From: Acholeplasma sp.
GTDB taxonomy: Bacteria; Bacillota_I; Bacilli_A; Acholeplasmatales; Acholeplasmataceae
DNA: 32,936 bases
NCBI GenBank assembly: GCA_003605085.1
Contig: QZKD01000010.1
Span: 1 to 32,936, forward strand
Direction of reading: 5' to 3'
Shown here: positions 5,350-32,936 of the stretch, in pieces
How positions within the stretch are numbered: the first letter of the stretch is position 1
How the letters are laid out: each line of letters opens with the position of its first letter
Notes under the pieces: generated by a model
The model's input: the letters and a program-made list of their open reading frames with translations, nothing else
Databases searched by the model: none
Told to the model about the DNA's origin: nothing
Position numbers and translations under genes: made by a program

Positions 5350-5390
5350 AGATATTCAAAGAATCCTTAAGTCGAAAAGAGGTGGTTTTA

Positions 5391-6653: not shown

Positions 6654-7309
6654 AAACACATACTATTTATAAGGAAACTCCGTTCCCCTGTGTATGATTA
6701 TTTCGGTTTTAATATGTCAATGAAACGATAGTAATAATCAGCATGACCCAAATTACTTTTGAAATAAGCACTCCTATCCAGATATTGCCCAAGTTACTCG
6801 GGAAAAATTGTGAAACCCTACTGTCACCATCATATTTAGTGCCTTCATTTCACATTGAAATGAGGGCTTTTTATCTTCTTAAGCTATTGTTAGCAGAGGT
6901 TCAAAAACAAGGACACAAAGTTTGAAACAAAATATTTATAAAATCAAAAATACTAATTTGAAATAAAACTTAAAACGCATACTGATAGAAGGTTGAGACG
7001 CTTATCAAAATAAAGGTGCTACATATAGTGAATATAGTCAAACTAAGTAAAAGATTAAGAGAAGATCTAGCAAGATTTACTTGGAAATTGAATTCCATAA
7101 TGGTGAAGAATTACGAACTTATCATACATAGAACAAGTAAATTTAATTTTCTAAATAGAAAAGCGAGTAAAAAAAATACCTCCCTATCCTTTATTTTGTA
7201 GTATAATTAGGGCAATTAAGAACATTTCTATGAGCAGATTTCAACACATATAAAGATTTGTGGCTTTCTTTACTTAACCTAATAACAAAACTAAATGGGG
7301 TGCTGGAAA
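6654..7309. other. Intergenic region with one terminator
   Basis: This 656-bp gap contains a terminator at 6841-6872. A possible -10 box TATAAT at 7202-7207, about 100 bp ahead of the next gene, has no good -35. Two 60-residue open frames (6743-6925 and 7016-7201) lack a ribosome binding site and any recognisable motif, and I do not call them genes. Confidence 0.5.
6841..6872 (+). terminator. Rho-independent terminator
   Basis: GCCTTCATTTCA pairs with TGAAATGAGGGC over 12 bp (one G-U pair) around a three-base loop, followed by TTTTTA. It probably ends the HD-GYP operon, although it lies about 190 bp past the stop codon. Confidence 0.85.
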
Positions 7310-10003
7310 ATGAAAAAAGATATATTGAAATATATCGATTTTAATAGATTTAATATTTTGTTAGAAGGGTTTAATAAGTCGACTGGATTTGTAACTGCTA
7401 TTTTGGATGTTGAAGGCAATATCATCTCTAAATCAGGATGGAGACATATCTGCACAGATTTTCATCGCGTTAATGCAGAGACCATTAAAAACTGCAAAAT
7501 CAGTGATACAGTTTTAGCAAACAATGTCAGCAAAGATAAAAAATATAGCATCTATAAATGTCATAATGGTTTAATTGATATTGCAGTACCCATTATCATT
7601 CAAGGAGAACACATAGCCAATCTTTTTACTGGACAATGTTTTTTAGAAAAGCCAAACATTGATTTTTTTATTGATCAAGCCAAAAAATATGGTTTTGATG
7701 AAAAAACATACTTAAAATCACTTGAGGAAGTTCCCATAGTTACCGAGGAACAAATAGAAGATATCATTGATTTTTTATTAAATCTCACTCAAATGATTGT
7801 TGATTTGACGATTGACAGAATTGAAAAAGAAAATTCTGAGTTGCTGCTGAAATCTAGTTTAGAAAGCCCTACAGATTTCATCATATTGGCGATAGATAAG
7901 GACTACAATTACCTATATTTCAATAAAGTACATAAAGATGTGATGAAATACGCATACAATGTAGATATCAAAACCGGTTCAAATTTAATGGATGCTATAT
8001 CATCTGATGTAGATAAAGAAAACGCTAAAATCAACTATGATTTGGCATTATCAGGTAAATCACACAAAACCATTCAAGAGTATGGTGATATTCATATTCG
8101 ATATTATGAGTCGATATATAATCCAATATATAACGACAATCAAGAGATTATTGGAGCTTCTGCATTTGCAAGAGATATCACTGATAGAATAGAAGCAGAA
8201 CATGAAATCAATTATCGAAAAGAATTATTGCAGTATATCATTAGTCGTAGTAACCAAGGGATAGCTGTTCACGATAAAGATTTAAATTATGTTTATGTCA
8301 GTGATCGATATTGTGAAATGTATAACGTAAGCAAAGATATTATTGGGAAACATCATTATGAAGTTTTTCCTGACCTCCCACAAAAATGGAGAGATGTGCA
8401 TCAAAGATGTTTGAAAGGTGAAACTGTTTCCGGTGATCGCGATGATTTCATACGATTAGATGGAAGTATTCAGTATACACGCTGGCTTGCTCAACCTTGG
8501 TATGATGTCAATGGTGAAATTGCCGGTATCATTATTTATACTGAAGTCATTAATGATTTGATTGAAACAGAACTACAACTTAATGAAACACTCGATCGTT
8601 TAAAACTTGTAATGGATAATCTTATTATTGGTATCGCAGTTAATTCAGTTGATCCTGAAGTCAATTTTGAATATATGAATAGCAATTTCCCCAAATTTTA
8701 TGGAACGACTAAAGAAGCATTGATGAAACCAGATTCATTTTGGGATGTGGTTTACGAAGATGAAACATTTAGAAAAGAAATTAAAGAAAAAGTATTAACA
8801 GGATTAGCTAGTAATGATCCTAAACTGAAAAGATGGGAATATGTACCGATTACTAAAAATGGTAAAATCGAGCGTTATGTTACAGCTCAAGGTGTGAATG
8901 TTCCTAACTCACCACTCATTATTTCGATGGTAATGGATGTAACCGAGCAAAAACGTAAGGAAGAAGATATTATATACACAAGTAATCATGATTATCTTAC
9001 AGGACTTTCGAATCGTAAATATTTTGAAGAGAAACTTTTAGAACTGGATCATGAGAATTATTATCCACTTACGGTTGCTATGATTGATTTAGATGGGTTG
9101 AAACTTATTAATGATGCCTACGGGCATGATTTAGGTGATGCAGTTCTTATCAAGGTCAGTAGTATATTAACAAAACATATCAGAGAAAATGATTTTCTTG
9201 CAAGAATTGGTGGTGATGAATTTGTAATGATCTGTCCCAATACAAATGAAAAAGATTTCGAAATCATACGTAATTCCATCTCGAATGATAATTTATCTTT
9301 CGAATATAACGACTTTAAGTTTTCTATATCCATAGGTCATGATGTTAAAATCGATTCATCTATCAATATGAAAGATGTTTTGAAGAATGCAGAAGATAGA
9401 ATGTATGCAAACAAAATTCTACATGGACAAAGCGCTCGCAACGAAACGATTATGACTCTTTTTGAGACATTAAAAGAGAAATACGAAGAAGAAAAATTAC
9501 ATTCAAATCGAGTGAGCGAATACTGTAAGATGATGGGTGAAAAACTTGATTTAAGTGAAGATCAAACGAAAGAGTTAGAATTCGCGGGTCTAATGCATGA
9601 TATAGGGAAAATAACCATACCCGATCGGATTTTAGATAAACCCGGGAAGTTAACGAATGAAGAATGGGTGATTATGAAAACTCATACGATTAATGGTTAT
9701 CACATCTTGCGCTCCGCAGATAAATATTCTAAACTCGCTGAATATGCTCTAACTCATCATGAAAGATGGGATGGGAAAGGGTATCCTAATGGGCTTAGAG
9801 AAGAAGAAATACCATTATTTTCAAGAGTAATTAGCATTTGTGATGCCTATGAAGCAATGACTGCGGATCGACCATATAGAAAAGCTTTAGATTATAAAGT
9901 TGCAATTGCAGAACTAAATCGATGTGCTGGTACTCAATTTGATAAAGAATTAGTTGCGATCTTTATAAATGCAGTTACCGAAAAGGAGCATATGATGTCA
10001 TAA
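7310..10003 (+). CDS. PocR-PAS(x3)-GGDEF-HD-GYP bifunctional cyclic-di-GMP protein
   Basis: This 897-residue soluble protein combines a sensory PocR domain (about 1-165; motif GWRHICTDFHRVN), three PAS domains (about 180-290, 300-420 and 425-550), a GGDEF diguanylate cyclase domain (about 565-705) and an HD-GYP phosphodiesterase domain (about 710-890). The cyclase site is intact (GGDEF at 634-638), with an RxxD inhibitory-site motif (Arg625-Asp628) at the canonical distance. The phosphodiesterase site is intact too: HDIGK with His763 and HHERWDGKGYP from 816. It could therefore both make and break cyclic-di-GMP under sensor control. PocR domains are known from propanediol regulators and are thought to bind small organic ligands. 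ATG 7295 is in frame, but GGGGTG at 7297-7302 fits ATG 7310 better. It is a single gene, with a terminator 50 bp after the stop. Confidence 0.9.
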   Translation: MKKDILKYIDFNRFNILLEGFNKSTGFVTAILDVEGNIISKSGWRHICTDFHRVNAETIKNCKISDTVLANNVSKDKKYSIYKCHNGLIDIAVPIIIQGEHIANLFTGQCFLEKPNIDFFIDQAKKYGFDEKTYLKSLEEVPIVTEEQIEDIIDFLLNLTQMIVDLTIDRIEKENSELLLKSSLESPTDFIILAIDKDYNYLYFNKVHKDVMKYAYNVDIKTGSNLMDAISSDVDKENAKINYDLALSGKSHKTIQEYGDIHIRYYESIYNPIYNDNQEIIGASAFARDITDRIEAEHEINYRKELLQYIISRSNQGIAVHDKDLNYVYVSDRYCEMYNVSKDIIGKHHYEVFPDLPQKWRDVHQRCLKGETVSGDRDDFIRLDGSIQYTRWLAQPWYDVNGEIAGIIIYTEVINDLIETELQLNETLDRLKLVMDNLIIGIAVNSVDPEVNFEYMNSNFPKFYGTTKEALMKPDSFWDVVYEDETFRKEIKEKVLTGLASNDPKLKRWEYVPITKNGKIERYVTAQGVNVPNSPLIISMVMDVTEQKRKEEDIIYTSNHDYLTGLSNRKYFEEKLLELDHENYYPLTVAMIDLDGLKLINDAYGHDLGDAVLIKVSSILTKHIRENDFLARIGGDEFVMICPNTNEKDFEIIRNSISNDNLSFEYNDFKFSISIGHDVKIDSSINMKDVLKNAEDRMYANKILHGQSARNETIMTLFETLKEKYEEEKLHSNRVSEYCKMMGEKLDLSEDQTKELEFAGLMHDIGKITIPDRILDKPGKLTNEEWVIMKTHTINGYHILRSADKYSKLAEYALTHHERWDGKGYPNGLREEEIPLFSRVISICDAYEAMTADRPYRKALDYKVAIAELNRCAGTQFDKELVAIFINAVTEKEHMMS

Positions 10004-21511: not shown

Positions 21512-22891
21512 ATGTATATTTTTGATGGTATATTGATTCTCACAACACTCGTTTCAACGATTTTCTACATGTCGAAAGATAAAATTGATAAGAAATATAT
21601 CGCTTATGCGATACTTTTTAATTTACTTGTCATTGTCATACATAGTTTTATCGGTTATATAAAATGGCAAATCATCCCCATCTATGTTCTAGGCTTTCTA
21701 TTGGTTTTATTGGGGAATGTAAAATTATCTAAAAAACTTCTTAGAATTTTGTTTATCAGTTTCTATACATTCATACTGATTGCATCGATGGCTTTACTTT
21801 ATGTGTTCCCTATGTCGGATATCCCCAATCCCTCTGGTCAATATATAATTGGTACTAGAGATTTTATTATCGAAGATCAAGACCGACTAGAACTATATAC
21901 AGAAGATTCCCTTGATACGAGAGAGTTTGCCTTTAGAATGTGGTATCCAACAGATTCTACTAGTCAGCAAGTCGTCTCCAAATGGATTGGAAATCTTTCG
22001 GTTTCAAGAGGACTTGCTGGTAGTATTGGATTACCCTCGTTTATTTTAGATCAGATTAGTCAAATTAACTCGAATTCATATGTCAATGCACCTTTGAGTC
22101 TCCAAGAAGATAGTTATCCCGTGGTGATTATCTCACATGGTTGGGGTGGATTTATGAGTCTTCACACAGACCTAGCTGAAGAACTTTCCAGTCGGGGCTA
22201 TGTTGTTGTATCCATCGATCATACCTACGGCTCTGTAGCGACAAATTTAGGGGACAGAATTGCTATACAGAATCAGGATGCATTACCTGATCGAAGCGAA
22301 GCCAACTTCCTGAGTGCAGCCAACCAACTCGTGTACACTTATGCAGGAGATATATCTAAAACACTGGACTATCTCGAATCAGAAAACGACATAACCTCTG
22401 ATGCATTTTTCAAAGGCAAACTGGATTTAGATCATATCGGACTTATTGGGCACTCAACAGGTGGAGGAGCTGATGTTGCTGTTGCATTAAACGATGACCG
22501 TATCACTGCACTTCTTGGTCTTGATGCATGGGTTGAACCCATCTCTAGCGAAGAGATAGAAAAAGGGTTAAGCATTCCAGCTATTTTTCTAAGAAGTGAG
22601 ACATGGGAAGAGGGATTGAATAATGCTAATCTCTATGACTTAATTCTAAATAGTGATCAAGCAGAACTCTACCAAATCGATGGAACCACACATTCGGATT
22701 TCTCTATGGCATACATGTTTTCTCCTCTTATGAGCATGATTGGATATACGGGATCCTTGAATAGCGATTACCTCTTGCAGATGCAAAAAGATGTGATGAA
22801 TGTATTTTTTGATCAACATCTGAAAGGAATCATAGATCAAAATATAGATTTATCCTTGTATGAAGAACTCAAAAATATAGAATTATCTTAA
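21512..22891 (+). CDS. Membrane-anchored hydrolase, PAF-acetylhydrolase-like
   Basis: This 459-residue protein has about four N-terminal membrane helices (roughly 2-20, 28-50, 54-70 and 78-99) followed by an alpha/beta hydrolase domain resembling platelet-activating-factor acetylhydrolase/chlorophyllase-like enzymes. Motifs are VVIISHGWGG (204-213), the nucleophile elbow GHSTGG with Ser315, LLGLDAW with Asp338 as likely acid, and GTTHSDF with His394. PAF-acetylhydrolase relatives split short acyl chains from phospholipids, but the bacterial substrate is unknown. A modest CGGAG lies about nine bases ahead of ATG 21512. It has its own promoter and a terminator 26 bp after the stop. Confidence 0.82.
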   Translation: MYIFDGILILTTLVSTIFYMSKDKIDKKYIAYAILFNLLVIVIHSFIGYIKWQIIPIYVLGFLLVLLGNVKLSKKLLRILFISFYTFILIASMALLYVFPMSDIPNPSGQYIIGTRDFIIEDQDRLELYTEDSLDTREFAFRMWYPTDSTSQQVVSKWIGNLSVSRGLAGSIGLPSFILDQISQINSNSYVNAPLSLQEDSYPVVIISHGWGGFMSLHTDLAEELSSRGYVVVSIDHTYGSVATNLGDRIAIQNQDALPDRSEANFLSAANQLVYTYAGDISKTLDYLESENDITSDAFFKGKLDLDHIGLIGHSTGGGADVAVALNDDRITALLGLDAWVEPISSEEIEKGLSIPAIFLRSETWEEGLNNANLYDLILNSDQAELYQIDGTTHSDFSMAYMFSPLMSMIGYTGSLNSDYLLQMQKDVMNVFFDQHLKGIIDQNIDLSLYEELKNIELS

Positions 22892-22916
22892 CAATTAATA
22901 ATCATAAGTTATACTG

Positions 22917-22946
22917 AACTCTTCCATTATCGGAGGAGTTTTTTAT
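22917..22946 (+). terminator. Rho-independent terminator
   Basis: AACTCTTCC pairs with GGAGGAGTT (9 bp, one G-U pair) around a six-base loop, followed by TTTTTT. It ends the hydrolase transcript. Confidence 0.88.
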
Positions 22947-22972
22947 ATGTGTTTAACCTTTTTTAGTCTAAC

Positions 22973-22999
22973 TTGAATACACCAATTTGGGATTATAAT
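22973..22999 (+). promoter_or_regulatory. Promoter of the AraC/GyrI-like regulator
   Basis: TTGAAT (22973-22978) and TATAAT (22994-22999) are separated by 15 bp. The regulator starts about 66 bp downstream. Confidence 0.6.
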
Positions 23000-23065
23000 A
23001 AAAGAGAACAAATTCGGTCAAGTAAATGAACTAAGTCATCTATATAATGGATATGTGGTGAGAAG

Positions 23066-23959
23066 ATGAATGAATCTATCAAAGAAATAGCAAAGCTCCA
23101 GCAATATATCGAAGACCACATCCACGATGAAATTACTCTTTTGAAGCTAGCACGAGAGAGCAACTATTCACCTTGGTATGTGGACAAACTATTCAAAAAG
23201 CACGTAAATAAATCACCAATGCAATACATCAAAGAGCGAAGATTAACCTTAGCAGCACTTATGTTAAGAGATCATCCCATGAAAGTGATGGATGTAGCTT
23301 TAGAGTTCTTATTTGACTCACATGAAGGATTTACCCGTGCTTTTTCAAAACATTTTGGGATTAGTCCCTATCGATATAAGGTTGAGACTCCAGCCATTCG
23401 ATTGTTTTTACCATATATCGTCTCTGACTACAAATCATTTGAACAAAGGAGAACAGAATCAGTGGAAACACAAGCCATTCCCATTTTTACTCAAGTCATC
23501 GAAAGACCCGAACGAAAACTCATTCTAAAAAGAGGAGAAAAAGCGAAACATTATTTCGCTTATTGTGAAGAAGTAGGGTGTGATATTTGGGGAATTTTAA
23601 CCTCTATCAAAGAAGCTTTATATGAACCTGTAGGTTTATGGTTACCCAATAAGCTAAAGGCAGGAAAATCGACGTATGTTCAAGGGGTTGAAGTTCCTTT
23701 AACGTATGATAAATCAATTCCAGATGGATTCGAAATCATCACTTTAAAGCCACAGTTTTACATGATATTTCAAGGGCCTAAATATGATGATTGTGATTTC
23801 ATGGAAGCCATCGATAGATTCAATCAAGCAGTTTCAACGTTCGATCCCACAGTTTATGGATATGAATTTGATCTTGATGAAGCCCCAGTATTTCAGCTTG
23901 AACCACGAGGTGAACGAGGATATATCGAAGCTAAACCTATACGAAAGATAAATCTATAA
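23066..23959 (+). CDS. AraC-family regulator with GyrI-like effector domain
   Basis: This 297-residue transcription regulator has an N-terminal AraC-type double helix-turn-helix domain (about 5-108; LAREsNYSpwYvDKLFKKHVNKSP, then FGISPYRYK) and a C-terminal GyrI-like/Rob-type ligand-binding domain (about 130-295). The order, DNA-binding first, is that of Rob and related MDR or stress regulators that sense hydrophobic or cationic compounds. The start has GTGAGAAG just ahead. It has its own promoter and terminator, so it is not in the following uronate operon, although it is immediately upstream of it; a regulatory role there is possible but unsupported. Targets and ligand are unknown. Confidence 0.87.
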   Translation: MNESIKEIAKLQQYIEDHIHDEITLLKLARESNYSPWYVDKLFKKHVNKSPMQYIKERRLTLAALMLRDHPMKVMDVALEFLFDSHEGFTRAFSKHFGISPYRYKVETPAIRLFLPYIVSDYKSFEQRRTESVETQAIPIFTQVIERPERKLILKRGEKAKHYFAYCEEVGCDIWGILTSIKEALYEPVGLWLPNKLKAGKSTYVQGVEVPLTYDKSIPDGFEIITLKPQFYMIFQGPKYDDCDFMEAIDRFNQAVSTFDPTVYGYEFDLDEAPVFQLEPRGERGYIEAKPIRKINL

Positions 23960-23995
23960 CTGAATTACTTATTGATCTACAAAGATATTTTAAAG

Positions 23996-24030
23996 GGCAC
24001 TCTTCTCATCGTGAGTCGAGTGTCTTTTTA
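23996..24030 (+). terminator. Rho-independent terminator
   Basis: GGCACTC and CTCA pair with TGAG and GAGTGTC across a 2x2 internal loop, followed by TTTTTA. It separates the regulator from the uronate operon. Confidence 0.8.
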
Positions 24031-24172
24031 ATCTATAAGCACATGATAATTTGACAGGCAAGATATTTCACTAGCATAAAATATTTGCATATTCATAGAT
24101 AGAGGTAACGAAGTATGTCTAAGTATTTTCAATTGATACCAAAAAAATAACAAAAACTCAACATTTTTCCGA

Positions 24173-24178
24173 TATAAT
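24173..24178 (+). promoter_or_regulatory. Probable -10 box of the uronate operon
   Basis: A consensus TATAAT lies 33 bp ahead of the first start codon of the operon, with no convincing -35 at the expected distance. No clear catabolite-response element was seen in the 250-bp gap; absence of a good -35 may mean activator dependence, which is an inference. Confidence 0.5.
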
Positions 24179-24211
24179 AAGGATAAATACATCATATACG
24201 AGGAGATTCTT

Positions 24212-26374
24212 ATGAAAAAATGGGTATTGATTATTTTAGGTGTCCTGTTAGCCTTTTTAGGTAGCATCGGTATTCAGTTTGCAATTAACATGGGCATTGA
24301 TCCGATACCCTCTAGACCATCAGGTGAGTATAACTCAGGTGGTGCCGATCGATTGCTTTATTATTTCTATCAAGAGGAACTTGGTCAACCTGTGGATGGA
24401 ATCACACTTAGTGATGATTTCATCGATGCTGAATTAGAAGGAACCTTTGATTATATCAATGGTCGCTATGATGTGGCTGATTTCAGAGTGAATGCACTCA
24501 TAAGACTCTATCTCTCTTATAAAGACTTAATGGCAGAACATACACAAGATGCCATTCAAGATGTCTTACTGGGTTTTAAGTATTGGATGGATCAAGGTGG
24601 CGAAGATTCGATGTGCTTCTGGTCAGAAAACCATCAAATCTTATTTGCCTCAGAGGAATACTTAGTGGGACAAACATTCCCAGATCAAATCTTTTCTGTG
24701 GACGGAAAGACGGGTTTAGAACACATGGCGATGGCAAAAAATCGCATCGATGCATGGCTATATCAACGCTTTACCTATGGTTACACGGAATGGTACTCCA
24801 ACAATTATTATCCTGAAGACATCGGACCATTATCCAACTTGATTCAATTCGCTGAAGATGATGATTTAGTGCTTCGTGCCAAGATGGCCATGGATTTATT
24901 GTGGTATGATATGGCTTCACAAAGTTATCGATACGAAGGTGTTGATGACCTTGGATCACCACGTATTTATTACATTTTCAATTCTTCATCAGGTCGAAGC
25001 TATTCGGATAATCGAATGAGTGATGATACGGGCAATCGGATGAGAGATTACATTGATTATATCATTCAACCCAATGAAACCGAAGATTTAGTTGATGGAT
25101 GGGGATCATCAGCGAATGGATTTTTCAATGCATTTCGTCAAATGATGGATGCCAGAGATATAGAAGGAGATCCTTACTATCAAGTCCCTGAAGTTATTAA
25201 AGCTATATTTAATGACCCCGCAGAGGAAAAAGTCATTCGTGCATCACAATCATTAAATGTAGAAGAACTAAAGGATGAGGGATTACTGGGACAAGAAGAT
25301 CATCAAATCATGATGCAATGGGCAATGGAAGCATTTAGTAATCCTGAAGTCGTGAATAATACCATTAAGTATATGGATACAAACAATATGTTTACGAATG
25401 AATTTTTGAATGATTTTAAACTAGTTAATCTTTGGCCACTTCGTGCATTTAACCTTTTGGGCATGGTGAGTAGAACCCTTAAACCATCAACCAATGGAGT
25501 AGCTATCGAACGTGCAAATGTCTATACGTATAAAAACGATCACTTCCTGATGTCTACAGCGCAAGCGTATCAAATGAATGAATACGCGGATCAACATGCA
25601 GTGCATCAATTCAATCTTTCCAATGAGGTATCTGTGTTCTCTACACAACCCGCCAAAATTCAACGACGTTCTGGAACGCCGACGTACTGGGTAGGTAACG
25701 GAAGACAGCCGATGAGTGTTCAAGAAAAGAATGTAAACATCTCCATCTATCAACCCCCAACAGAAGTGGGCTTTATGGAACCCATGATAATAAAAGAAAC
25801 GACGCACGTCTTCTTCCCACAACAACTCTTTGATGAAGTCAATATGGATTATCTTGATCAAGGGATGATCTTTGGACGTGTCAACTCATCCTATATTGGG
25901 ATTCACGCACGCTATGCCTTAGTCTTCACGCCATTTGAAACATCCAATAAAGAAGGCGATCAAGACGATATGCTTAAACGAGGATCCGTAGGAACAATCC
26001 TTACCGATGATTATGATTTGGTACAAACAGGCGTCGGCGATCACTATTACGTGACTGAGATGTCATCTTCTGAGATTGAAACTTTTAATGGATTTGTTGA
26101 TCGTATGATGGCAAATACATTGGTCTATAACGAAGAGAATCATGAAGTGATTTATTCGACAACGATGTATTTAGAATCCAGTATCACTTCGTTAAAAGCC
26201 AATATGCAAGGATCCTTTTGGGTGGATGATGTATTACAAGATCTTGAATATCCTCGGTTCTATTCACCATATGTCGATGGTGCAATTGCAAGAAAACCCG
26301 AAACAATCACTTTTAGTTTTGAAGGACATCAACTCACCTTAAATTTTGAGCAAAAATCACGGGTTATGTCATGA
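24212..26374 (+). CDS. Exported or anchored member of an unrecognised polysaccharide-degradation family (paralogue 1)
   Basis: I do not recognise this 720-residue protein. It starts with a basic and hydrophobic signal or anchor (MKKW, helix about 4-27) without a lipobox, so it should act outside the cytoplasm. The region about 75-470 is helix-rich and the rest is richer in beta strands, a layout seen in (alpha/alpha)-toroid plus beta-sandwich polysaccharide lyases. The best-conserved stretches shared with the paralogue at 28514-30379 are FKYWMD, MCFWSENHQ (SENHQ 138-142), TEWYSNNYY (192-200), SSSGRSY, WAMEAF, GVAIERANVY and YWVGNG; Asn/His/Tyr/Arg clusters of this sort are candidate catalytic residues. 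AGGAG six bases ahead supports ATG 24212. It overlaps the next gene by 4 bp (ATGA), placing it first in the uronate operon. A lyase or hydrolase acting on the polymer outside the cell is inferred from context. Confidence 0.72.
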   Translation: MKKWVLIILGVLLAFLGSIGIQFAINMGIDPIPSRPSGEYNSGGADRLLYYFYQEELGQPVDGITLSDDFIDAELEGTFDYINGRYDVADFRVNALIRLYLSYKDLMAEHTQDAIQDVLLGFKYWMDQGGEDSMCFWSENHQILFASEEYLVGQTFPDQIFSVDGKTGLEHMAMAKNRIDAWLYQRFTYGYTEWYSNNYYPEDIGPLSNLIQFAEDDDLVLRAKMAMDLLWYDMASQSYRYEGVDDLGSPRIYYIFNSSSGRSYSDNRMSDDTGNRMRDYIDYIIQPNETEDLVDGWGSSANGFFNAFRQMMDARDIEGDPYYQVPEVIKAIFNDPAEEKVIRASQSLNVEELKDEGLLGQEDHQIMMQWAMEAFSNPEVVNNTIKYMDTNNMFTNEFLNDFKLVNLWPLRAFNLLGMVSRTLKPSTNGVAIERANVYTYKNDHFLMSTAQAYQMNEYADQHAVHQFNLSNEVSVFSTQPAKIQRRSGTPTYWVGNGRQPMSVQEKNVNISIYQPPTEVGFMEPMIIKETTHVFFPQQLFDEVNMDYLDQGMIFGRVNSSYIGIHARYALVFTPFETSNKEGDQDDMLKRGSVGTILTDDYDLVQTGVGDHYYVTEMSSSEIETFNGFVDRMMANTLVYNEENHEVIYSTTMYLESSITSLKANMQGSFWVDDVLQDLEYPRFYSPYVDGAIARKPETITFSFEGHQLTLNFEQKSRVMS

Positions 26375-27075
26375 GACAGATTGGACTTCAAACATATACG
26401 GTTCGAAAGTTGATGAAAGAAGACCTAGAATTGACATTCTCTGAACTCAAGTCGATGGGTATTCAGCAAATTGAAGTTTCACGAATGCCCATTAATGATG
26501 ACACTGCACAAAAAATAAGTGAGTATCAATTTGATGTGTGTTCTTTACAGATCACGATGAAAAAGTTGTTTAATGATGCAGAAGAAATCATTCGTTTTGC
26601 ACGAACGGTCAATGCAAATCATGTCGTCGTCTCAGTGTTGCCGTGGTGGGGGCATATCCCTGTGATAGGCATCAAGCGATTTGTTAAGAAGATGCATGAA
26701 TTACAGCGTATCTATGAAAAAGAAGGGATCATCCTTTCGTTTCATCACCATGCTTACGAGATCAAAAACGATATCTTACCTGTACTCGATAAATGGTTAG
26801 ACAAAAAAATAGGCTTTATTATCGATACCTACTGGATTACTTTCTCGAAAAAGGATCCGTTAGAGGTGTATCAAGACTTCAAACATCGTGTTAAAGGCAT
26901 TCATTTAAGAGACTATGTGGATGGTCATGATATCACACCGGGTAAAGGCAACATTGATTTTAAACGTATTTTTGGCCAAGTGCCAGATACGGTCTATACT
27001 GTAATTGAAGAAAATGCGAAAGATCCATTGATTGCAATTAAAGAAGCAAAACACTATTTGGAGGGACTTCTATGA
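26371..27075 (+). CDS. Sugar phosphate isomerase/epimerase (xylose isomerase-like TIM barrel)
   Basis: This 234-residue cytosolic protein has the xylose isomerase/AP endonuclease 2 TIM-barrel fold. Typical pieces are QIEVSRM (33-39), LSFHHHAYE (122-130), FIIDTYWITFSKKDPLE (149-165), KGIHLRDYVDG (175-185), PGKGNIDF (190-197) and YTVIEEN (209-215); Asp152, His178 and a glutamate of the IEE motif (Glu213 or 214) are likely metal ligands. It is somewhat shorter than most relatives (about 260-290 residues). It overlaps the previous gene and the following transporter gene by 4 bp each (ATGA), so it is translationally coupled to both. The sugar is not predictable from the motifs; context suggests a breakdown product of a uronic-acid polysaccharide. 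Confidence 0.85.
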   Translation: MRQIGLQTYTVRKLMKEDLELTFSELKSMGIQQIEVSRMPINDDTAQKISEYQFDVCSLQITMKKLFNDAEEIIRFARTVNANHVVVSVLPWWGHIPVIGIKRFVKKMHELQRIYEKEGIILSFHHHAYEIKNDILPVLDKWLDKKIGFIIDTYWITFSKKDPLEVYQDFKHRVKGIHLRDYVDGHDITPGKGNIDFKRIFGQVPDTVYTVIEENAKDPLIAIKEAKHYLEGLL

Positions 27076-28502
27076 CACAAAAACCGTTTAGCAACAAAGA
27101 AAAAATGTTATTCGCTTGGGGTGACGTCTTTGGTGGTGGTTCACAAGCCATGATTGGCGTACTCTATTTAATTTTTCTAACAGACATTATAGGTATTAAT
27201 CCTGCACTGGCAGCAACAGCAATCATGATTTCCAAGGTGTGGGATGCCATCAGTGATCCATTGATGGGGGTCATCAGCGATAATACCCGCACTAAATTTG
27301 GTCGAAGAAGACCTTACATTTTCGCGGGTGGGTTGATGGTACTTATTGCCTATCTGCTTATGTGGTTTCCTCTAGGTAGTGGTTTAACAGAAGGTGTTAA
27401 AGTCTTCTATGCGATTGCGACATATCTATTTTATAGTACAGTGGCAACGATTGTCATGGTACCTTATAGTTCACTTTCGGCGGAAATCACCACGGATACT
27501 AAACAGCGTAATAGCGTTAACCTAATTCGTTTGATCATCTCTACGGTCGCGAGCGCAGTATGTACCCTTGTTCCTTCGATGCTATTAGAACAATTCAAAG
27601 CAGGAGCATTTGGCATTAATGTCTTTTATGTTGTTGTGGGTATTGGTTTTGGTATCTTCTTCGCCCTTCCCCTTGTTCTTATTGGTTTTTTTACAAGGGA
27701 AAGAGCCAACCTTCCTGAAGAAAAATCTGTTTTCTCGATGAAAACATTTGTTAAGCCCTTACGGATTCGTGCGTTTCGTGGTTTGGTATATATGTATTTA
27801 TGCCAAAGCATCTCGATGGATATCTTGTCTGCGGGAATCATATTCTTCACCACATATGTATTAATCTCGGGATCATCTACCGTCTTTTTAGGAATCTTTA
27901 TCGGGGTTCAACTCTTGATGTTTCCCTTAATCAATTCACTTGTCAATAAAATCGATAAGAAGAGAGTTTATTATTACGGATTACCTTTAGCGGTAGTGGC
28001 ATTTCTCTTTGTAGGGTTGTATCCTGAAGAATGGCCGATCATAGGTGCATATGCATTAACTGGACTCACTGCACTTGGTTTTGCGGGAGCTCAATTGATG
28101 AGTTGGATTATTTTCCCAGATACTGTGGATGCGGGTGAACTTGTGTTAAATGAACGTCCCACTGGATCGTTTTCTGGAATCATGACCTTCATCAGAAAGA
28201 CAGCATCTGCAATCGCTATTCAGATTTTTGGTATTATGCTCGCTGTATCAGGATATATTCAACCCACTGAGTTGATTCCCTCACCTACACAACCCGAAGC
28301 TGCTGTTTGGGGAATTCGTCTAGCGATGTCACTCTCTTTCGTCATCTTGATGACGGTAGGATATTTCCTTGCAAGACGTTTTGTGTTGACCAAAGCACTG
28401 ACACTAGAAATTTCATCATTCCTTGATAAACGTGAAAAACGAGTCGAACTATCAGATGATGAAAACAAGCGATTGATTGAGATAAAACAAATCGTCGGTT
28501 AA
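27072..28502 (+). CDS. GPH-family sugar:cation symporter
   Basis: This 476-residue, about 12-helix transporter belongs to the glycoside-pentoside-hexuronide:cation symporter group of the major facilitator superfamily (MelB/XynB/UidB-like). Supporting features are the N-terminal FAWGDVFGGGSQA, the KVWDAISDPLMGVISDNTRTKFGRRRPYI block near 55-85 that is the family hallmark, and the cytoplasmic KIDKKRVYYYGL. It would import oligosaccharides or uronides with a proton or sodium ion. It begins within the stop codon of the isomerase gene and is followed 12 bp later by the cytosolic paralogue, which carries its own AAGGAGAAGG. It supplies the uptake step of the operon. Confidence 0.9.
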   Translation: MTQKPFSNKEKMLFAWGDVFGGGSQAMIGVLYLIFLTDIIGINPALAATAIMISKVWDAISDPLMGVISDNTRTKFGRRRPYIFAGGLMVLIAYLLMWFPLGSGLTEGVKVFYAIATYLFYSTVATIVMVPYSSLSAEITTDTKQRNSVNLIRLIISTVASAVCTLVPSMLLEQFKAGAFGINVFYVVVGIGFGIFFALPLVLIGFFTRERANLPEEKSVFSMKTFVKPLRIRAFRGLVYMYLCQSISMDILSAGIIFFTTYVLISGSSTVFLGIFIGVQLLMFPLINSLVNKIDKKRVYYYGLPLAVVAFLFVGLYPEEWPIIGAYALTGLTALGFAGAQLMSWIIFPDTVDAGELVLNERPTGSFSGIMTFIRKTASAIAIQIFGIMLAVSGYIQPTELIPSPTQPEAAVWGIRLAMSLSFVILMTVGYFLARRFVLTKALTLEISSFLDKREKRVELSDDENKRLIEIKQIVG

Positions 28503-28513
28503 AGGAGAAGGAC

Positions 28514-30379
28514 ATGGCTACAGAAGATGTTGGTATGGCCATCAAAATGAATACGAAGTGTTTTCCTGAGATCGTGGATTTAGATCAAGAGAAGACAATC
28601 GATGAAACCAATCTTTTATCATTGGTAGATTTTGTGAATGCACGTTATGACTGTGCAGATTTCCGCATGCTTGTCTTGATAAAAACTTATAAGGACTACA
28701 AGAAACTTTTAACAGATACAACGATCCAAAAGATTAAAGAAGCCATCCTCAATTTTAAATATTGGATGGACGAACCTGGCGATGATGGGATGTGTTTTTG
28801 GTCGGAGAATCATCAACTCATCTTTCATACATGTGAATATTTAGCAGGATTAATATTTCCAGAAGCTGTTTTTACTAATGATGGGAAAACAGGAAAAGAA
28901 CATGTAGAAAAAGCAAAGATAAAAATCGAGCACTGGTTGAATGATCGGTTTATGTATGGCATGACTGAATGGCATTCCAACACCTATTATGAAGAAGACA
29001 TCGCACCACTAACTCTTTTAATCGAACAAGCAAAAGATCAAAAGATAGTCGTTCGTGCAAAAATGATGTTGGATTTACTTCTTTTAGATATGGCACTCTA
29101 TTCATTTGAAGGTTATTTTGTCACCTCATCTGGACGTGCTTATGAGAAACAAAAGAAGCGCGGAGCGGATGCCGATGTCAATGATATACTAAAAAAAGCT
29201 TTTGGTATTTTAAACCATGAGTATGATTACACGAGATTATCAACACTCTTTCTTCTAACAAAGAATTATCAAGTCCCTGACGTGATTCATTTGATTGCAC
29301 AACAACGTGAAAAGGGCATTATCAAGGCATCTAACGGTTTGAATCTCTCTGAAGTCAAACATGAAATCAGAGAGAAAACCAATGATCGACAAGGCATGTA
29401 TTTTTGGGCGATGGAAGCTTTTACGAATCCTGAGTCTATCATGATGACGATGAAAATCTACAATGATTGGCATTTAGAAGAAAACAATTTTTTACGCGAC
29501 CTTAAAATGATTAACGCACCGGTTTTAAGAAAGTTAAAACTTCTCCCACTATTGGTAAAAATCCTTAATCCAGCCACTCGAGGTGTTGCTATTGAACGTG
29601 CGAACACCTATGTTTATCATACAAAACATTATATGCTAACAACAGCACAAGCCTATCATCCAAAGGATTTTGGTGATCAACAACATCTATGGCAAGCTTC
29701 ACTTCCCGGAGATATTCATCTCTTTTCAACCCATCCAGGATCACCGATGTTCGATGATCCAGCAAGAAATTTCTCGCCATCTTATTGGGTCGGTAATGGT
29801 ATTAATCCTTTGGTGGTGCAACACGAGAATCGAGTATTTATTCTCTATAACCTCACCCCTCGTAAAGGATTTTTAGAAAGAAAAAGACAAACATTTATCC
29901 ATATCAATCTACCTTTTGATGTGTTTGATGAAGTGATTGAAATGGAGAAGACAATCTTCCTAATGAAGAAAAAGACATACTGTGCACTTCAATTCTCCAA
30001 AGTCTATGAGAAGAAAAATGATGAAGTCATGGTGCACGGTAAGCACATCCAAATGGTCGTGACCATGGGATCATCTGAACAAGATGGATCATTTAAAGAG
30101 TTTATAGCCAAGAGAGAAACTGAAGAACTTTTAATGACACGCTTTGGTATCTATTTAGAAGATATAGAGCATTCATATCGTATAGGTTGGAGTATACCAC
30201 TCATGATTGACAAGACATACGTGCCTTTAGAATATCCAAGGTTAGAATCCAACTTTGCCCAGATTGAACGAAAACCAAAATCCATTGACATACAGTTTAG
30301 CGGTCATGGACTTACATTGGATCATGATGCATGCACAAGGGAGGTTTGGACGAATGAACGTTATCGAAAAGATCAATAA
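28514..30379 (+). CDS. Cytosolic member of the unrecognised polysaccharide-degradation family (paralogue 2)
   Basis: This 621-residue protein is homologous along most of its length to the product of 24212-26374 but has no signal or membrane helix, so it should act in the cytosol. It keeps the same marker motifs: FKYWMD, MCFWSENHQ (SENHQ 97-101), TEWHSNTYY (151-159), SSGRAY, YQVPDVI, WAMEAF, GVAIERANTY, YWVGNG and the C-terminal LEYPR plus GHGLTLDH. Compared with paralogue 1 it lacks the first ~45 residues and one central insert (about 240-290 of paralogue 1 is much shorter here). AAGGAGAAGG just ahead of ATG 28514 supports the start. The next gene overlaps its 3' end by 26 bp. Its role is inferred as cleavage of imported oligosaccharides. 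No EC number can be assigned from the sequence. Confidence 0.72.
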   Translation: MATEDVGMAIKMNTKCFPEIVDLDQEKTIDETNLLSLVDFVNARYDCADFRMLVLIKTYKDYKKLLTDTTIQKIKEAILNFKYWMDEPGDDGMCFWSENHQLIFHTCEYLAGLIFPEAVFTNDGKTGKEHVEKAKIKIEHWLNDRFMYGMTEWHSNTYYEEDIAPLTLLIEQAKDQKIVVRAKMMLDLLLLDMALYSFEGYFVTSSGRAYEKQKKRGADADVNDILKKAFGILNHEYDYTRLSTLFLLTKNYQVPDVIHLIAQQREKGIIKASNGLNLSEVKHEIREKTNDRQGMYFWAMEAFTNPESIMMTMKIYNDWHLEENNFLRDLKMINAPVLRKLKLLPLLVKILNPATRGVAIERANTYVYHTKHYMLTTAQAYHPKDFGDQQHLWQASLPGDIHLFSTHPGSPMFDDPARNFSPSYWVGNGINPLVVQHENRVFILYNLTPRKGFLERKRQTFIHINLPFDVFDEVIEMEKTIFLMKKKTYCALQFSKVYEKKNDEVMVHGKHIQMVVTMGSSEQDGSFKEFIAKRETEELLMTRFGIYLEDIEHSYRIGWSIPLMIDKTYVPLEYPRLESNFAQIERKPKSIDIQFSGHGLTLDHDACTREVWTNERYRKDQ

Positions 30380-31403
30380 ATTAGCACGTGATATCGTAGA
30401 AACTTGGGATCCTAAGATGAAGTGGATGTGGGGTGAAGCTCTTTTGGGGTATGCGCTCTCCCTTTTGGATGAACATCAAAAGACCGATCAGTTTACACCA
30501 TTCTTGAAAGCATACTGTGACTACTATGTCGCAAATTCCCCTCGTGTTGACCAAAGTGATACCTCTGCTCCTGGACTTATTACGTATTACATGTGGAAGA
30601 AAACGAAGAATGAAGACTATAAGACATTGACTGATCGCGTGATTCACTACATCATGAAAGAACCACGACTTATCGAAGACTCCGTTAATCATCTGGGAAA
30701 TTCACTCGAAGGCAAGTTTTACCCTAAATCGATTTGGGTCGACAGTCTCATGATGTTTTCTGTTTTTCCAGCAAGATACGCGAAAGAACAAAATGATCAA
30801 GAGATGATGAAGGTTGCTGCTAGACAACCCCGCATCATGGCTAAATATATGCAAGACCCTAAAGATCACCTTTGGTATCACAGCTATTGGACCACGTGGA
30901 AAACACACTATCCAAAGAGAAAGATCTACTGGGGACGGGGCAATGGATGGGTCATTGCTGCTCTACCCATGATCTTAGAATCCATTGGTGATCATGAAGA
31001 AAAGGATCAAATCATCACCATCTTCCAAAAAACTGCGCAAGCATTATTACCTTATCAACGCTCAGATGGTGCTTTTGAAACAGTAATTAACAAAGTGGGT
31101 AAGACTTATCGTGAATTATCCTTTACTGCACTTGTCGCTTCAGGGTTTCTCCAAGGTTTCCGTTTAGGACTTCTCGATGAATCCTTTAAAGTCGCAGGAG
31201 AAAAAGCATTATTTGCCGTCATCAATGCTCTATACGAAGAAAATGGAAGACTCTTTATGCCTGAGATCAGTGGACCGACCATACCGATGCCACTATTTCC
31301 GTACTTGGGCTATAAGCTGATTCCCAAAAATAAAAATTGGTCCTATGGACTCGCAGCATTAATCTTTGCTGGTATTCAATACGATTTGCTAAATCAACAA
31401 TAA
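30354..31403 (+). CDS. GH105 unsaturated uronyl hydrolase (YteR/YesR-like)
   Basis: This 349-residue cytosolic enzyme belongs to glycoside hydrolase family 105/88, which releases delta-4,5-unsaturated uronic acids from the ends of lyase-made oligosaccharides by hydration of the double bond. The (alpha/alpha)6-barrel motifs are visible: a VDQSDTSAPG loop near 65-74, SIWVDSLMMF with the likely catalytic Asp130 (Asp143 in YteR), the hallmark WGRGNGW (193-199) and QRSDGAFETVI. The frame also opens at 30255, but GGGAGG at 30338-30343 and the family length fit ATG 30354, which overlaps the preceding gene by 26 bp. Its presence strongly implies that a polysaccharide lyase produced its substrate, which bears on the two unknown paralogues. 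Subfamily specificity (galacturonyl or glucuronyl) is not decidable here. Confidence 0.9.
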   Translation: MNVIEKINKLARDIVETWDPKMKWMWGEALLGYALSLLDEHQKTDQFTPFLKAYCDYYVANSPRVDQSDTSAPGLITYYMWKKTKNEDYKTLTDRVIHYIMKEPRLIEDSVNHLGNSLEGKFYPKSIWVDSLMMFSVFPARYAKEQNDQEMMKVAARQPRIMAKYMQDPKDHLWYHSYWTTWKTHYPKRKIYWGRGNGWVIAALPMILESIGDHEEKDQIITIFQKTAQALLPYQRSDGAFETVINKVGKTYRELSFTALVASGFLQGFRLGLLDESFKVAGEKALFAVINALYEENGRLFMPEISGPTIPMPLFPYLGYKLIPKNKNWSYGLAALIFAGIQYDLLNQQ

Positions 31404-31419
31404 AAGGTAGGATACAACA

Positions 31420-32808
31420 ATGAAAATGGTAAAGATTGCCTACATTGGTGGTGGATCTCGGCTATGGGCTCGTGGATTGATGAGCGATTTAGCCCTTGAA
31501 AAAGAAATAGGTGGCGAAGTCTCTTTATATGATATCGATCTAGAGGCTGCTGAAAATAATGCCATCATTGGCAACAAGATGATGGCACTCGATCAAACTG
31601 TTGGAAAGTGGATCTTCACGGTTGCAAAAACACTTGAGGAATCACTACAAAACGCAGACTTTGTGTTCATTTCCATATTGCCGGGGACATTTGATGAGAT
31701 GGAAACCTATGTCCATGCACCTGAAAAATGGGGCATATATCAAACGGTAGGTGATACGACAGGACCCTCAGGGATATTCCGCTCATTGATCATGATGCCT
31801 ATCTATGCAGAGTTTGCCGAAAAGATTAAACGATTTGCCCCCAATGCATGGGTCATCAATTTTACTAACCCGATGACGATGTGTGTACAAATGCTTTACC
31901 ATGTATATCCAAAGATTAAAGCATTTGGTAATTGTCATGAAGTTTTTCATGTCCAAATGATTCTCGCTAAAGCACTAAAAGAAGTGAAAGGCATTGATGC
32001 GACCCGTCATGAGATAAAGATTAATCCTCAAGGGATCAATCATTTCACGTGGATCAATTATGCATCTTATAAAGATATGGACTTAATGCCTATCTATAAG
32101 ACATATGTCGATAAATACTATAATGCAGGTGTTCATGGAGAAAATTGGATTCATGTAGGACCTTTTGGCAGTTCTGAACGAGTCAAGTTTGATCTTTTTA
32201 AACGTTTTGGAGTCATTGCAGCAGCAGGCGATCGCCACTTGGTTGAGTTCTTACCTCATGAATGGTATACAAAAGATAAAGAAACGATTGATAAGTGGCG
32301 CTTCTTTCTCACTCCTGTAAGTTTGCGGAAGCAAATTAAGGAAAGAGGAAATGCATCAGCAAAACGCATTATCGAAGGCAAAGAAAACGTTGAAATTCAT
32401 GGATCTGGAGAAGAAGGCATTCTGCAGTTAAAAGCTATTTTAGGGTTAACAGAGCTCATCACGAATGTCAACATGCTCAACTATGGTCAAATCCCCAATT
32501 TACCTTTAGGACATGTTGTCGAAACCAATGCGTTATTTCGCAGAAATGATGTTAAGCCTATCTATTCTGGAGAAATGCCAGAACTTCCTGCCGAAATGAC
32601 ACGACCCCATGTAATGAATCATCAACGGTTGCTCAAAGCGTTTGATCAAAAAGATTTGACGTATGCACTTGAAGCCATGTATCATGATGTATCATTAAGT
32701 CATCTATCCAAAGAAGACATTAAAGCTATGTTTATCTATGTGATCGAAAGAATCAATGAGTATCTTGGATACTATACACATACACCTAAAGAGTTGTTTG
32801 ATAGATAA
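31420..32808 (+). CDS. GH4 NAD-dependent alpha-galacturonidase/glucuronidase-like enzyme (LplD-type)
   Basis: This 462-residue cytosolic enzyme belongs to glycoside hydrolase family 4, which uses NAD+, a divalent metal and an oxidation-elimination-addition-reduction mechanism. An N-terminal Rossmann motif YIGGGSR (8-14), NFTNP (147-151), and the metal ligands Cys172 in NCHE and His208 in GINHF are visible. The VGDTTGPSGIFRSL segment (110-122) resembles LplD/galacturonidase-type members rather than maltose-6-phosphate enzymes. A uronide substrate fits the adjacent GH105 gene; alpha-glucuronidase or another glycoside remains possible. AAAGGTAGGAT ahead of ATG 31420 is a good ribosome binding site; the gene is 16 bp after GH105. 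It is followed by a terminator at 32880-32910. Confidence 0.88.
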   Translation: MKMVKIAYIGGGSRLWARGLMSDLALEKEIGGEVSLYDIDLEAAENNAIIGNKMMALDQTVGKWIFTVAKTLEESLQNADFVFISILPGTFDEMETYVHAPEKWGIYQTVGDTTGPSGIFRSLIMMPIYAEFAEKIKRFAPNAWVINFTNPMTMCVQMLYHVYPKIKAFGNCHEVFHVQMILAKALKEVKGIDATRHEIKINPQGINHFTWINYASYKDMDLMPIYKTYVDKYYNAGVHGENWIHVGPFGSSERVKFDLFKRFGVIAAAGDRHLVEFLPHEWYTKDKETIDKWRFFLTPVSLRKQIKERGNASAKRIIEGKENVEIHGSGEEGILQLKAILGLTELITNVNMLNYGQIPNLPLGHVVETNALFRRNDVKPIYSGEMPELPAEMTRPHVMNHQRLLKAFDQKDLTYALEAMYHDVSLSHLSKEDIKAMFIYVIERINEYLGYYTHTPKELFDR

Positions 32809-32879
32809 ACAAGTTTAAGGCAAAAGAAAGAGCCCTGCGAGAAAGTATTTGATTAAAACGGACAATAAAATAAAAAGAG

Positions 32880-32910
32880 TAGAGTTATGTGTATTCATAG
32901 CTCTATTTTT
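32880..32910 (+). terminator. Rho-independent terminator of the uronate operon
   Basis: TAGAGTTATG pairs with CATAGCTCTA (10 bp, one G-U pair) around a six-base loop, followed by TTTTTG. It lies 70 bp after the GH4 stop codon. Confidence 0.85.
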
Positions 32911-32927
32911 GTTATATAAGAGTATTG

Positions 32928-32936
32928 AGAGGAGGT
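32928..32936 (+). promoter_or_regulatory. Ribosome binding site of a gene beyond the window
   Basis: The window ends with AGAGGAGGT, a near-perfect Shine-Dalgarno sequence, so a plus-strand gene probably starts within about ten bases past the edge. The terminator just before it suggests a separate transcript. Confidence 0.6.

Follow-up and report, generated by a model that had tools for sequence, protein, structure and literature searches.

A six-gene operon around a homologous pair

The window analyzed here, a stretch of 32,936 nucleotides from an Acholeplasma sp., is the entire contig C21 of a 1.72-Mb assembly whose completeness was judged to be 85%. Six consecutive open reading frames (ORFs), all on the + strand at 24212-32808 in the ORF listing, form what we interpret as a galacturonide operon, and two of them encode homologues from an unnamed family, labeled here U1 (outside) and U2 (inside). 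When gene context, predicted fold, and active-site motif are considered together, it is probable that U1 and U2 represent an undescribed family of polysaccharide lyases (PL) with an (alpha/alpha) toroid and a beta-sheet domain, one member cutting outside the cell and the other inside. The genes are as follows, with GH denoting glycoside hydrolase.

24212-26374, + strand: U1, 720 amino acids, putative lyase-like protein, apparently membrane-anchored and outward-facing (ORF, N-terminal helix, fold matches, motif)
26371-27075, + strand: xylose-isomerase-like TIM barrel, putative sugar isomerase/epimerase (PF01261, AP_endonuc_2, 4.3e-11)
27072-28502, + strand: putative GPH-type sugar:cation symporter (MFS_2, 1.7e-63)
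28514-30379, + strand: U2, 621 amino acids, predicted cytosolic, of the U1 family (ORF, N-terminus not hydrophobic)
about 30354-31403, + strand: GH88/GH105 unsaturated uronyl hydrolase (PF07470, Glyco_hydro_88, 3.1e-54)
31420-32808, + strand: GH4, LplD-type alpha-galacturonidase (Glyco_hydro_4, 2.8e-49; PDB 3fef LplD, 3.5e-125)

An earlier, sequence-only reading of this stretch had described six consecutive genes joined by ATGA overlaps or short spacers, and the ORF positions confirm this arrangement. U1 and the TIM barrel gene share four bases (26371-26374), as do the TIM barrel and symporter genes (27072-27075); an 11-base gap separates the symporter gene from U2, U2 and GH105 overlap by 26 bases, and 16 bases lie between GH105 and GH4. 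The mechanical ORF of GH105 runs from 30255, and the ATG at 30354 is preceded by GGGAGG. Each of the genes called isomerase/epimerase, GPH symporter, GH105, and GH4 in that reading has a clear Pfam family.

U1 had been called an exported enzyme and U2 its cytosolic homologue. The two are homologues, with 39% identity in an alignment over their length, and the N-terminus of U2 is not hydrophobic (Kyte-Doolittle 17-residue maximum of 0.64, against 2.82 for that of U1), as expected of a cytosolic protein. The hydrophobic N-terminus of U1 agrees with a position outside the cell. As residues 3 to 27 are modelled as one helix, strongly hydrophobic and with no Cys lipobox discernible by eye, U1 looks membrane-anchored and outward-facing, which is a better description than exported.

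U proteins as a family

For neither U1 nor U2 did a Pfam or NCBIfam match exceed the cut-off, and U2 had no Pfam match at all at E<=1. When a profile of 80 U rows was compared with 177635 PDB sequences, none matched at E<=10. Several low-scoring matches were rejected: the polyhedrin (PF17515) match of U1 at 1.1e-4 lies below the curated cut-off and spans 35 residues only, the sole PDB-sequence match of U2 is to ribosomal L11 at E 0.6, and the PHROGs matches of both proteins (E 0.02-0.2) were taken as chance. In viral contigs, none of 24 stretches carrying a motif pattern encoded a U relative. A description of the family was not found in the titles and abstract starts of the literature matches listed. 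From these comparisons, the family appears to be new to Pfam and NCBIfam as well as to solved structures.

Genome contigs were scanned once, with loci selected via the two patterns [FY]WSENHQ[LI] and [HY]SN[TN]YY[EP]E, and the best 80 of 252 confirmed stretches encoding U relatives were kept (79 loci; genomes, contigs, and loci are given below as G, C, and L numbers). The kept loci come from Mycoplasmatota, Bacillota, Spirochaetota, Bacteroidota, Verrucomicrobiota, Planctomycetota, Chloroflexota, Actinomycetota, Pseudomonadota, and one Lokiarchaeote. Alignment A3, with 80 rows, holds the two window proteins and 78 of 84 listed relatives, ORFs of fewer than 580 residues and loci L069, L041, and L096 having been dropped before listing. 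A search of plasmid proteins returned 199 U records, including 123 from Rhizobium, 40 from Pseudosulfitobacter, and 3 from the haloarchaeon Haladaptatus; where a product is given in the rows shown, it is hypothetical protein.

By a simple hydrophobicity rule, an N-terminal membrane segment is predicted for 45 of the 80 A3 members and not for the other 35. On a quick tree, in which support is weak for 20 of 77 inner branches and row L098 sits on a very long branch, these exported and cytosolic labels require 2 changes, compared with about 26 in shuffles (0/500 as low). The exported and cytosolic forms therefore look like old subfamilies and not like the outcome of a recent duplication within the operon. 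Either form can also occur by itself: cytosolic U is often found beside a GPH carrier and GH105 with no exported U in the locus, and the fetched Bacteroidota loci have exported U without cytosolic U.

Predicted fold and active-site motif

The U1 model, built from the 80-sequence alignment, has a mean predicted local distance difference test (pLDDT) of 92.7 and a predicted template modelling score (pTM) of 0.93. It consists mostly of helices, with a few strands, up to about residue 430, and mostly of strands thereafter, so that the arrangement defining the fold group, an (alpha/alpha)n toroid followed by an antiparallel beta-sheet domain, is present in the model. Compared with the PDB by Foldseek, the model gave ten matches at E<0.005 (seven at E<=0.001), nine of them to uronate lyases and one to an epimerase: a PL17 lyase, dermatan sulfate epimerase 1, the alginate lyase Atu3025, heparinase III, a chondroitinase, GAGase VII, the Dp0100 alginate lyase (two entries), GAGase II, and chondroitin ABC lyase. 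An earlier and fair model of U2 (13 sequences; pLDDT 78.6, pTM 0.85) had three PDB matches at E<=0.001, all to the Agrobacterium alginate lyase Atu3025 (PL15).

The U1 motif consists of N140-H141 and E193..S196..Y199. In A3, N140, H141, E193, S196, Y199, and Y200 are invariant in all 80 rows, an invariance that for Asn-His is largely by construction because the loci were chosen via motif patterns. The first pattern applies to 78 of the 80 rows, the second to 39, and the first alone to 41; in these 41, Tyr199 was unconstrained by selection, yet it does not vary. A pattern-free set of 12 proteins, retrieved by tblastn with no selection for the motif, comprises 11 plasmid proteins and one from a genome of the order, and covers Rhizobium, Sinorhizobium, Neorhizobium, Phyllobacterium, Gemmobacter, Pseudosulfitobacter, Subdoligranulum, Haladaptatus, and the order genome. 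Here N140, H141, E193, S196, Y199, D203, R262, Y264, and Q461 are kept in 12/12 rows and W137 in 7/12. The spacing from N140 to Y199 is 59 in all 92 rows of the two sets.

This spacing falls inside the range of known lyases. Distances from Asn to Tyr, subtracted from the positions in Table 4 of PMC12088678, are 53 for PL39, 54 for PL12, PL35, and PL15 exo-heparinase, 57 for PL17, 59 for PL8 (1RWA), and 63 for PL23. The same table gives Arg or Glu as the neutralizer in PL15 (3A0O) and PL21, with the first His 54 and 55 residues before Tyr, and an Asp 63 before Tyr in PL8 (2Q1F); a His and a Tyr are listed as base and acid for PL15 and PL21, and Asn-His are adjacent, in that order, in PL39 and PL15 exo-heparinase (PMC12088678). 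Of 30 heparinase-II/III-like proteins (PF07940, Hepar_II_III, the Pfam model for PL12, PL15, PL17, and PL21), 10 fit E.(S/A)..Y after DG, and in these an Asn precedes the Tyr by 53-55 residues.

Conservation of the operon and its genomic context

U is carried by 13 of the 61 genomes searched, namely 12 of 20 genus members and one member of another family in the same order. The gene order, which the sequence-only reading had proposed to look for in other genomes, recurs across the genus as U1-TIM barrel-GPH-U2-GH105. It is contiguous in 7 of the 12 U-carrying members (G000, G001, G002, G003, G005, G010, G014), consistent in 3 where contig ends interrupt it (G004, G011, G019), and split into U1-TIM barrel and GPH-U2-GH105 in 2 (G006, G007). 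This order is not due to chance. The distant relative G043 has GPH-U2-GH105, with no U1 within the stretch fetched. GH4, counted earlier as part of the operon, follows GH105 in just 2 of 10 genus loci that continue past GH105 (the window and G011) and is a lineage-specific addition outside the conserved core. The operon thus consists of two modules, to which GH4 has been added locally.

Among the loci fetched, those of near relatives carry the names Acholeplasmataceae, Tenericutes, and Peloplasma aerotolerans. The genome of P. aerotolerans contains the operon (L046); the paper on this species lists simple sugars, and the word "pectin" is absent from its main text (PMC11122141). In G010 (L026, 3342-5482), U1 is broken over two frames and U2 is retained, which may reflect an assembly error or a decaying gene.

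A route complete within the six genes had been envisaged, and this does not hold for the six genes alone. The kdu/kdg genes, which that reading expected downstream, are present in the same genome on another contig, C29 (L126), where GH28, Eda, KdgK, IclR, a TIM barrel, KduI, and an SDR lie in a row, along with an ABC ATPase and other genes; the enzyme names rest on domain matches (KduI/IolB, SDR, PfkB, KDPG-aldolase) and context. The two sets are united in L053, a single 18.5-kb contig with U1-TIM barrel-GPH-U2-GH105 and, facing it, SDR, KduI, IclR, KdgK, Eda, GH28, and transporter-like genes. Across the genus, KduI was matched in 11/12 genomes with U and in 1/8 without (Fisher p 0.0008, shared ancestry ignored), the exception without U being G016 with a partial match of 57 bits. 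A GH28 of about 515 residues occurs in 10/12 genomes with U and in 2/8 without (G008, G016). In G011, a second kduI/SDR pair (L127, C48) lies near a LacI-like regulator (recognized by eye), other genes, and a fragment of GH88, a possible sign of a further uronate locus.

In L069, a single 974-residue ORF is a gene fusion of U and GH88 (residues 637-967). Local hidden Markov model searches over the 79 U loci detected GPH homologues in 41, GH105/GH88 in 37, the TIM barrel in 20, SDR in 11, IclR in 6, KduI in 5, KdgK in 4, Eda in 4, and GH28 in 2; these are raw counts without a background control and, as many contigs are short, lower bounds. Pfam tallies of 73 and 85 neighbors, hand-chosen from 229 listed on the same strand (loci L041-L057, L060, L062, L071, L073, L077, and L079 excluded), are in agreement with these counts: GH88 was found in 7/73 and 11/85, MFS_2 in 15/85, KduI in 4/85, and sulfatase in 4/73. 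Downstream of U on Rhizobium plasmids come GH88, GH28, and an ABC transporter. The gene immediately before U is kduI in Pseudosulfitobacter, Phyllobacterium, and Gemmobacter, where GH88 and a transporter of the TRAP or ABC type lie nearby. The neighbors shown for Haladaptatus U include isomerases and oxidoreductases; none of them is named as GH88 or as a kdu gene.

Partner enzymes and likely substrate

The families of the partner enzymes offer a way to narrow the substrate. The symporter scores 215.1 bits against MFS_2, above the cut-off, and 208.6 bits against TIGR00792, under the cut-off of 231.35; judged by these scores, it is at least a relative of the GPH carriers. The TIM barrel has no relative among PDB sequences at E<=1e-5. 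GH105 scores 184.7 bits against Glyco_hydro_88 (cut-off 26.6), and its PDB matches are led by 4wu0, annotated "similar to yteR" (6.3e-18), and include 3qwt and 1nc5. Elsewhere in the same genome, away from U, a second GH88/GH105 lies on contig C6 (L040, 10763-11896) and scores 305 bits against the Pfam model.

The sequence-only reading had mentioned GH4 enzymes of the LplD type, and among solved GH4 structures LplD (3fef) is by far the nearest, matched at 3.5e-125 and the next at 2.5e-20. The GH28 of the kdu locus is nearest to exo-polygalacturonases. Together, the LplD-type GH4, the exo-polygalacturonase-like GH28, and the YteR-like GH105 point to pectic galacturonides, which we regard as the likeliest substrate from these assignments. 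Of the glycans named earlier (pectin, rhamnogalacturonan, ulvan, or glycosaminoglycan-like), the pectic ones are thus favored, also by the Rhizobium U-GH88-GH28 arrangement, and other uronate glycans are kept as possible for the family as a whole. Indeed, the family may act on several of them, because sulfatases and rhamnosidases lie in some loci. The idea that Agu genes encode alpha-galacturonide importers was dropped, as the literature matches listed gave it no support.

Proposed mechanism and alternatives

Computation establishes the gene order, the enzyme families, conservation, similarity of fold, the gene fusion, and co-occurrence; from these we infer beta-elimination, the substrate, the compartments, and each step of the flow as follows. 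U1, held by its N-terminal helix on the outer face of the wall-less cell, would cut uronate chains by beta-elimination, and the GPH symporter would import the short products. In the cytosol, U2 could cut these again to yield 4,5-unsaturated uronyl ends, from which GH105 would release unsaturated uronate, and KduI, a KduD-like SDR, KdgK, and Eda may then convert this to pyruvate and glyceraldehyde 3-phosphate. GH4 of the LplD type would remove saturated alpha-galacturonyl residues, in this lineage only. Within the active site, Asn140 is the candidate to neutralize the carboxylate, with His141 and Tyr199 as putative base and acid. The earlier suggestion that the unknown pair supplies the lyase step is thus supported by fold, motif, the U-GH105 fusion, and linkage to kduI and the partner genes in several phyla, with beta-elimination as the presumed activity.

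A wider proposal, towards which we lean only slightly, is that U constitutes a new PL family with members in Mollicutes, Bacillota, Spirochaetota, Bacteroidota, Verrucomicrobiota, Planctomycetota, Chloroflexota, Pseudomonadota, and archaea, which split early into exported and cytosolic branches. The cytosolic branch would be a GH105-coupled oligosaccharide lyase, and the two branches would later have been joined in one operon, where they may perform the outside and inside cuts of pectic chains.

Known lyases elsewhere that supply GH105, with U1 and U2 inactive on all uronate polymers, had been named as the case that would overturn a lyase role for U. In the 85%-complete own genome no match to PF07940, PF00544, PF14583, PF18370, or PF22842 was found (PL2, PL3, PL4, and PL10 were not searched for), the last four being models that we take to represent PL1 (PF00544), PL22 (PF14583), PL11 (PF18370), and PL9 (PF22842). 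None of the 20 genus genomes matched PF14583, PF18370, or PF22842, each of which was found in 1-2 of 14 control genomes. PL1-type matches occur in 8/12 genus genomes with U and in 1/8 without (p 0.03, shared ancestry ignored), and the own genome and three other U-carrying genomes have none. The PL1-type matches (in G014, G005, G002, and others) lie in frames of about 1070-1670 and about 300-500 amino acids, and these proteins may be surface pectate lyases. The PF07940 heparinase-like protein of G005 (L144, contig C34, about 31049-31702) has about 580 amino acids and a motif N-H ... E.S..Y with a spacing of 54.

Several observations weigh against the proposed route. The Foldseek template modelling scores of the U1 model are low (0.17-0.35), with large root-mean-square deviations, which indicates kinship of fold and not a close match, and one fold relative, dermatan sulfate epimerase 1, is an epimerase. 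The hhalign comparison of U with 30 pooled PF07940 proteins gives a weak result (probability 4.9%, E 0.008). For the third catalytic His of known lyases, U offers no clear equivalent; the candidates H462/463 (77/80) and H532 (75/80) stand at another distance from Tyr. With regard to the motif, 78 of 80 A3 rows match the WSENHQ pattern used to select loci, many pattern-free rows are close kin (several rhizobial proteins are near-identical), and Tyr200, which never varies in A3, is replaced by Phe or Leu in 4/12 pattern-free rows (kept in 8/12), so that it is also rejected as an alternative catalytic residue. The co-occurrence of U and KduI was tested without regard to shared ancestry, and G014 has U with no KduI match. 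As 8 of 12 U-carrying genus genomes have a PL1-type pectate-lyase match, U need not be the sole lyase there, and U-carrying G005 has the PF07940 protein as well. Lastly, sulfatases in 9 of 79 U loci fit other glycans.

Sequence homology of U to PF07940 is not claimed. U1 and U2 have no match to this model at E<=1, and although the pooled hhalign is collinear over 562 columns and lays the N-H of U on a PF07940 Asn (at the same probability of 4.9%), separate comparisons with each of two PF07940 subgroups and with the G005 protein by itself yielded 0.1-0.4%, hardly above the GH105, GPH, and TIM barrel controls at 0.1-0.2%.

It is possible, and we give this some limited weight, that U1 and U2 are lyases whose substrate is not homogalacturonan but, for instance, rhamnogalacturonan I, arabinogalactan rhamnose-glucuronate caps, or ulvan-like sulfated glycans. 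A 4,5-unsaturated lyase product loses its C4 stereochemistry, and GH105 and the kdu genes would therefore be the same for such a substrate. The nearness of GH105 to YteR-like proteins, the 9/79 loci with sulfatases, the alpha-L-rhamnosidase domains in 2/73 selected neighbors, and the loci with cytosolic U, GPH, and GH105 but no exported U, which would suit short imported oligosaccharides, all fit this; the own-genome GH28, the LplD-type GH4, and the Rhizobium GH28 point instead to alpha-galacturonides.

Other functions for the same fold seem improbable. U1 and U2 could be uronyl epimerases or other non-eliminating uronate enzymes that prepare chains for a separate lyase, given that the second fold match of U1 is human dermatan sulfate epimerase 1 and that a PL1-type match is present in 8/12 U-carrying genus members. 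However, four U-carrying genomes, the own genome included, have no PL1 match, nine of ten fold matches are lyases, and U is fused to or overlaps GH105, an enzyme that acts on lyase products. We consider it similarly unlikely that U1 and U2 are (alpha/alpha)6-type hydrolases, with known lyases elsewhere supplying GH105. GH92, GH146, and GH95 appeared at E 0.016-0.06 with the earlier, poorer U2 model, and relatives have the PL1-type matches, but there is no hydrolase among the ten best matches of the better U1 model, the motif is of lyase type, and the five lyase families searched for in the own genome gave the negative result described above. Least credible is that U1 is an inactive surface binding protein and U2 alone an enzyme. 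The predicted membrane anchor and the loci in which U1 stands apart from U2 (G006, G007) would be compatible with this, yet the motif residues are kept in exported and cytosolic rows alike (with the caveat of A3 selection), and in the fetched Bacteroidota loci exported members occur without a cytosolic one.

Flanking and other features of the window

Two further features border the operon.

23066-23959, + strand: AraC-family regulator, upstream of the operon (HTH_18, 3e-19)
32881-32904, + strand: possible hairpin, then a T-rich stretch, 3' of GH4 (seen by eye; not among the program's terminators)

Membership of the AraC regulator in the operon is not supported, as different genes occupy its place in other genus members showing that side. 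The contig end (32909-32936) carries an AGGAGG-like sequence after the possible hairpin, and another gene may therefore start just beyond it. Promoter-like sites numbered 27, fewer than the 35.7 in shuffles, and were not used; terminator-like sites numbered 9, compared with 5.8. No Rfam match in 22800-32936 reached its gathering score.

Elsewhere in the window, three adjacent HD_5 (HD-GYP-like) genes at 3196-10003, one of them encoding a PocR-PAS-GGDEF-HD protein of 902 amino acids, suggest by their domains cyclic-di-GMP signaling in a small wall-less genome. A membrane protein at 13170-14054 matches TMEM164 (PF14808, 2.5e-21), which we take to be the family name of an animal gene, and an ATPase with AAA_14 and DUF4143 lies at the contig start (6-1145).

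Comparison with known systems

Both the toroid lyases and the Kdu route are of a known kind. With the toroid/beta-sheet uronate lyases (PL8, PL12, PL15, PL17, PL21, PL23, PL35, PL39), U shares the predicted fold and the order Asn/His ... Tyr, at a spacing of 59 compared with their 53-63, and its adjacent Asn-His is also seen in PL39 and PL15 exo-heparinase. It differs from them in having no sequence match to a solved chain or to PF07940.

Bacterial pectin and rhamnogalacturonan pathways employ GH105 (YteR), GH4 (LplD), GH28, and the series KduI-KduD-KdgK-Eda. The same downstream enzyme families are present in this genome, whereas PF00544, PF22842, PF18370, and PF14583 were not found here, and U stands at the place where a lyase is expected. 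A parallel in another phylum is an operon on pRL12 of Rhizobium johnstonii strain 3841 (RL_RS36345-RL_RS36370), in which U, annotated as hypothetical protein, lies beside GH88 and GH28 with UgpC and permeases and keeps the motif. This operon differs in using ABC import and not GPH, and in its U protein, where the match to U2 begins about 350 residues into the protein and the middle stretch of U1 and U2 is missing. If our assignment is right, a family whose members compared with Pfam match no model above its cut-off and whose annotated copies, in the rows shown, are called hypothetical protein, including the plasmid copies of nodule rhizobia, gains a testable function in breaking plant or algal uronate chains, and the use of pectic fragments by free-living, wall-less bacteria of the Acholeplasma group would be suggested.

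The logic of the operon resembles the oligo-alginate lyase system as presented in PMC12336832 and PMC11921355, in which lyases act outside and PL15/PL17 oligo-lyases act inside, so that cutting outside, import, and cutting inside lead to unsaturated monomers. In contrast to that system, the outside and inside enzymes proposed here would be two old subfamilies of one family, followed by GH105.

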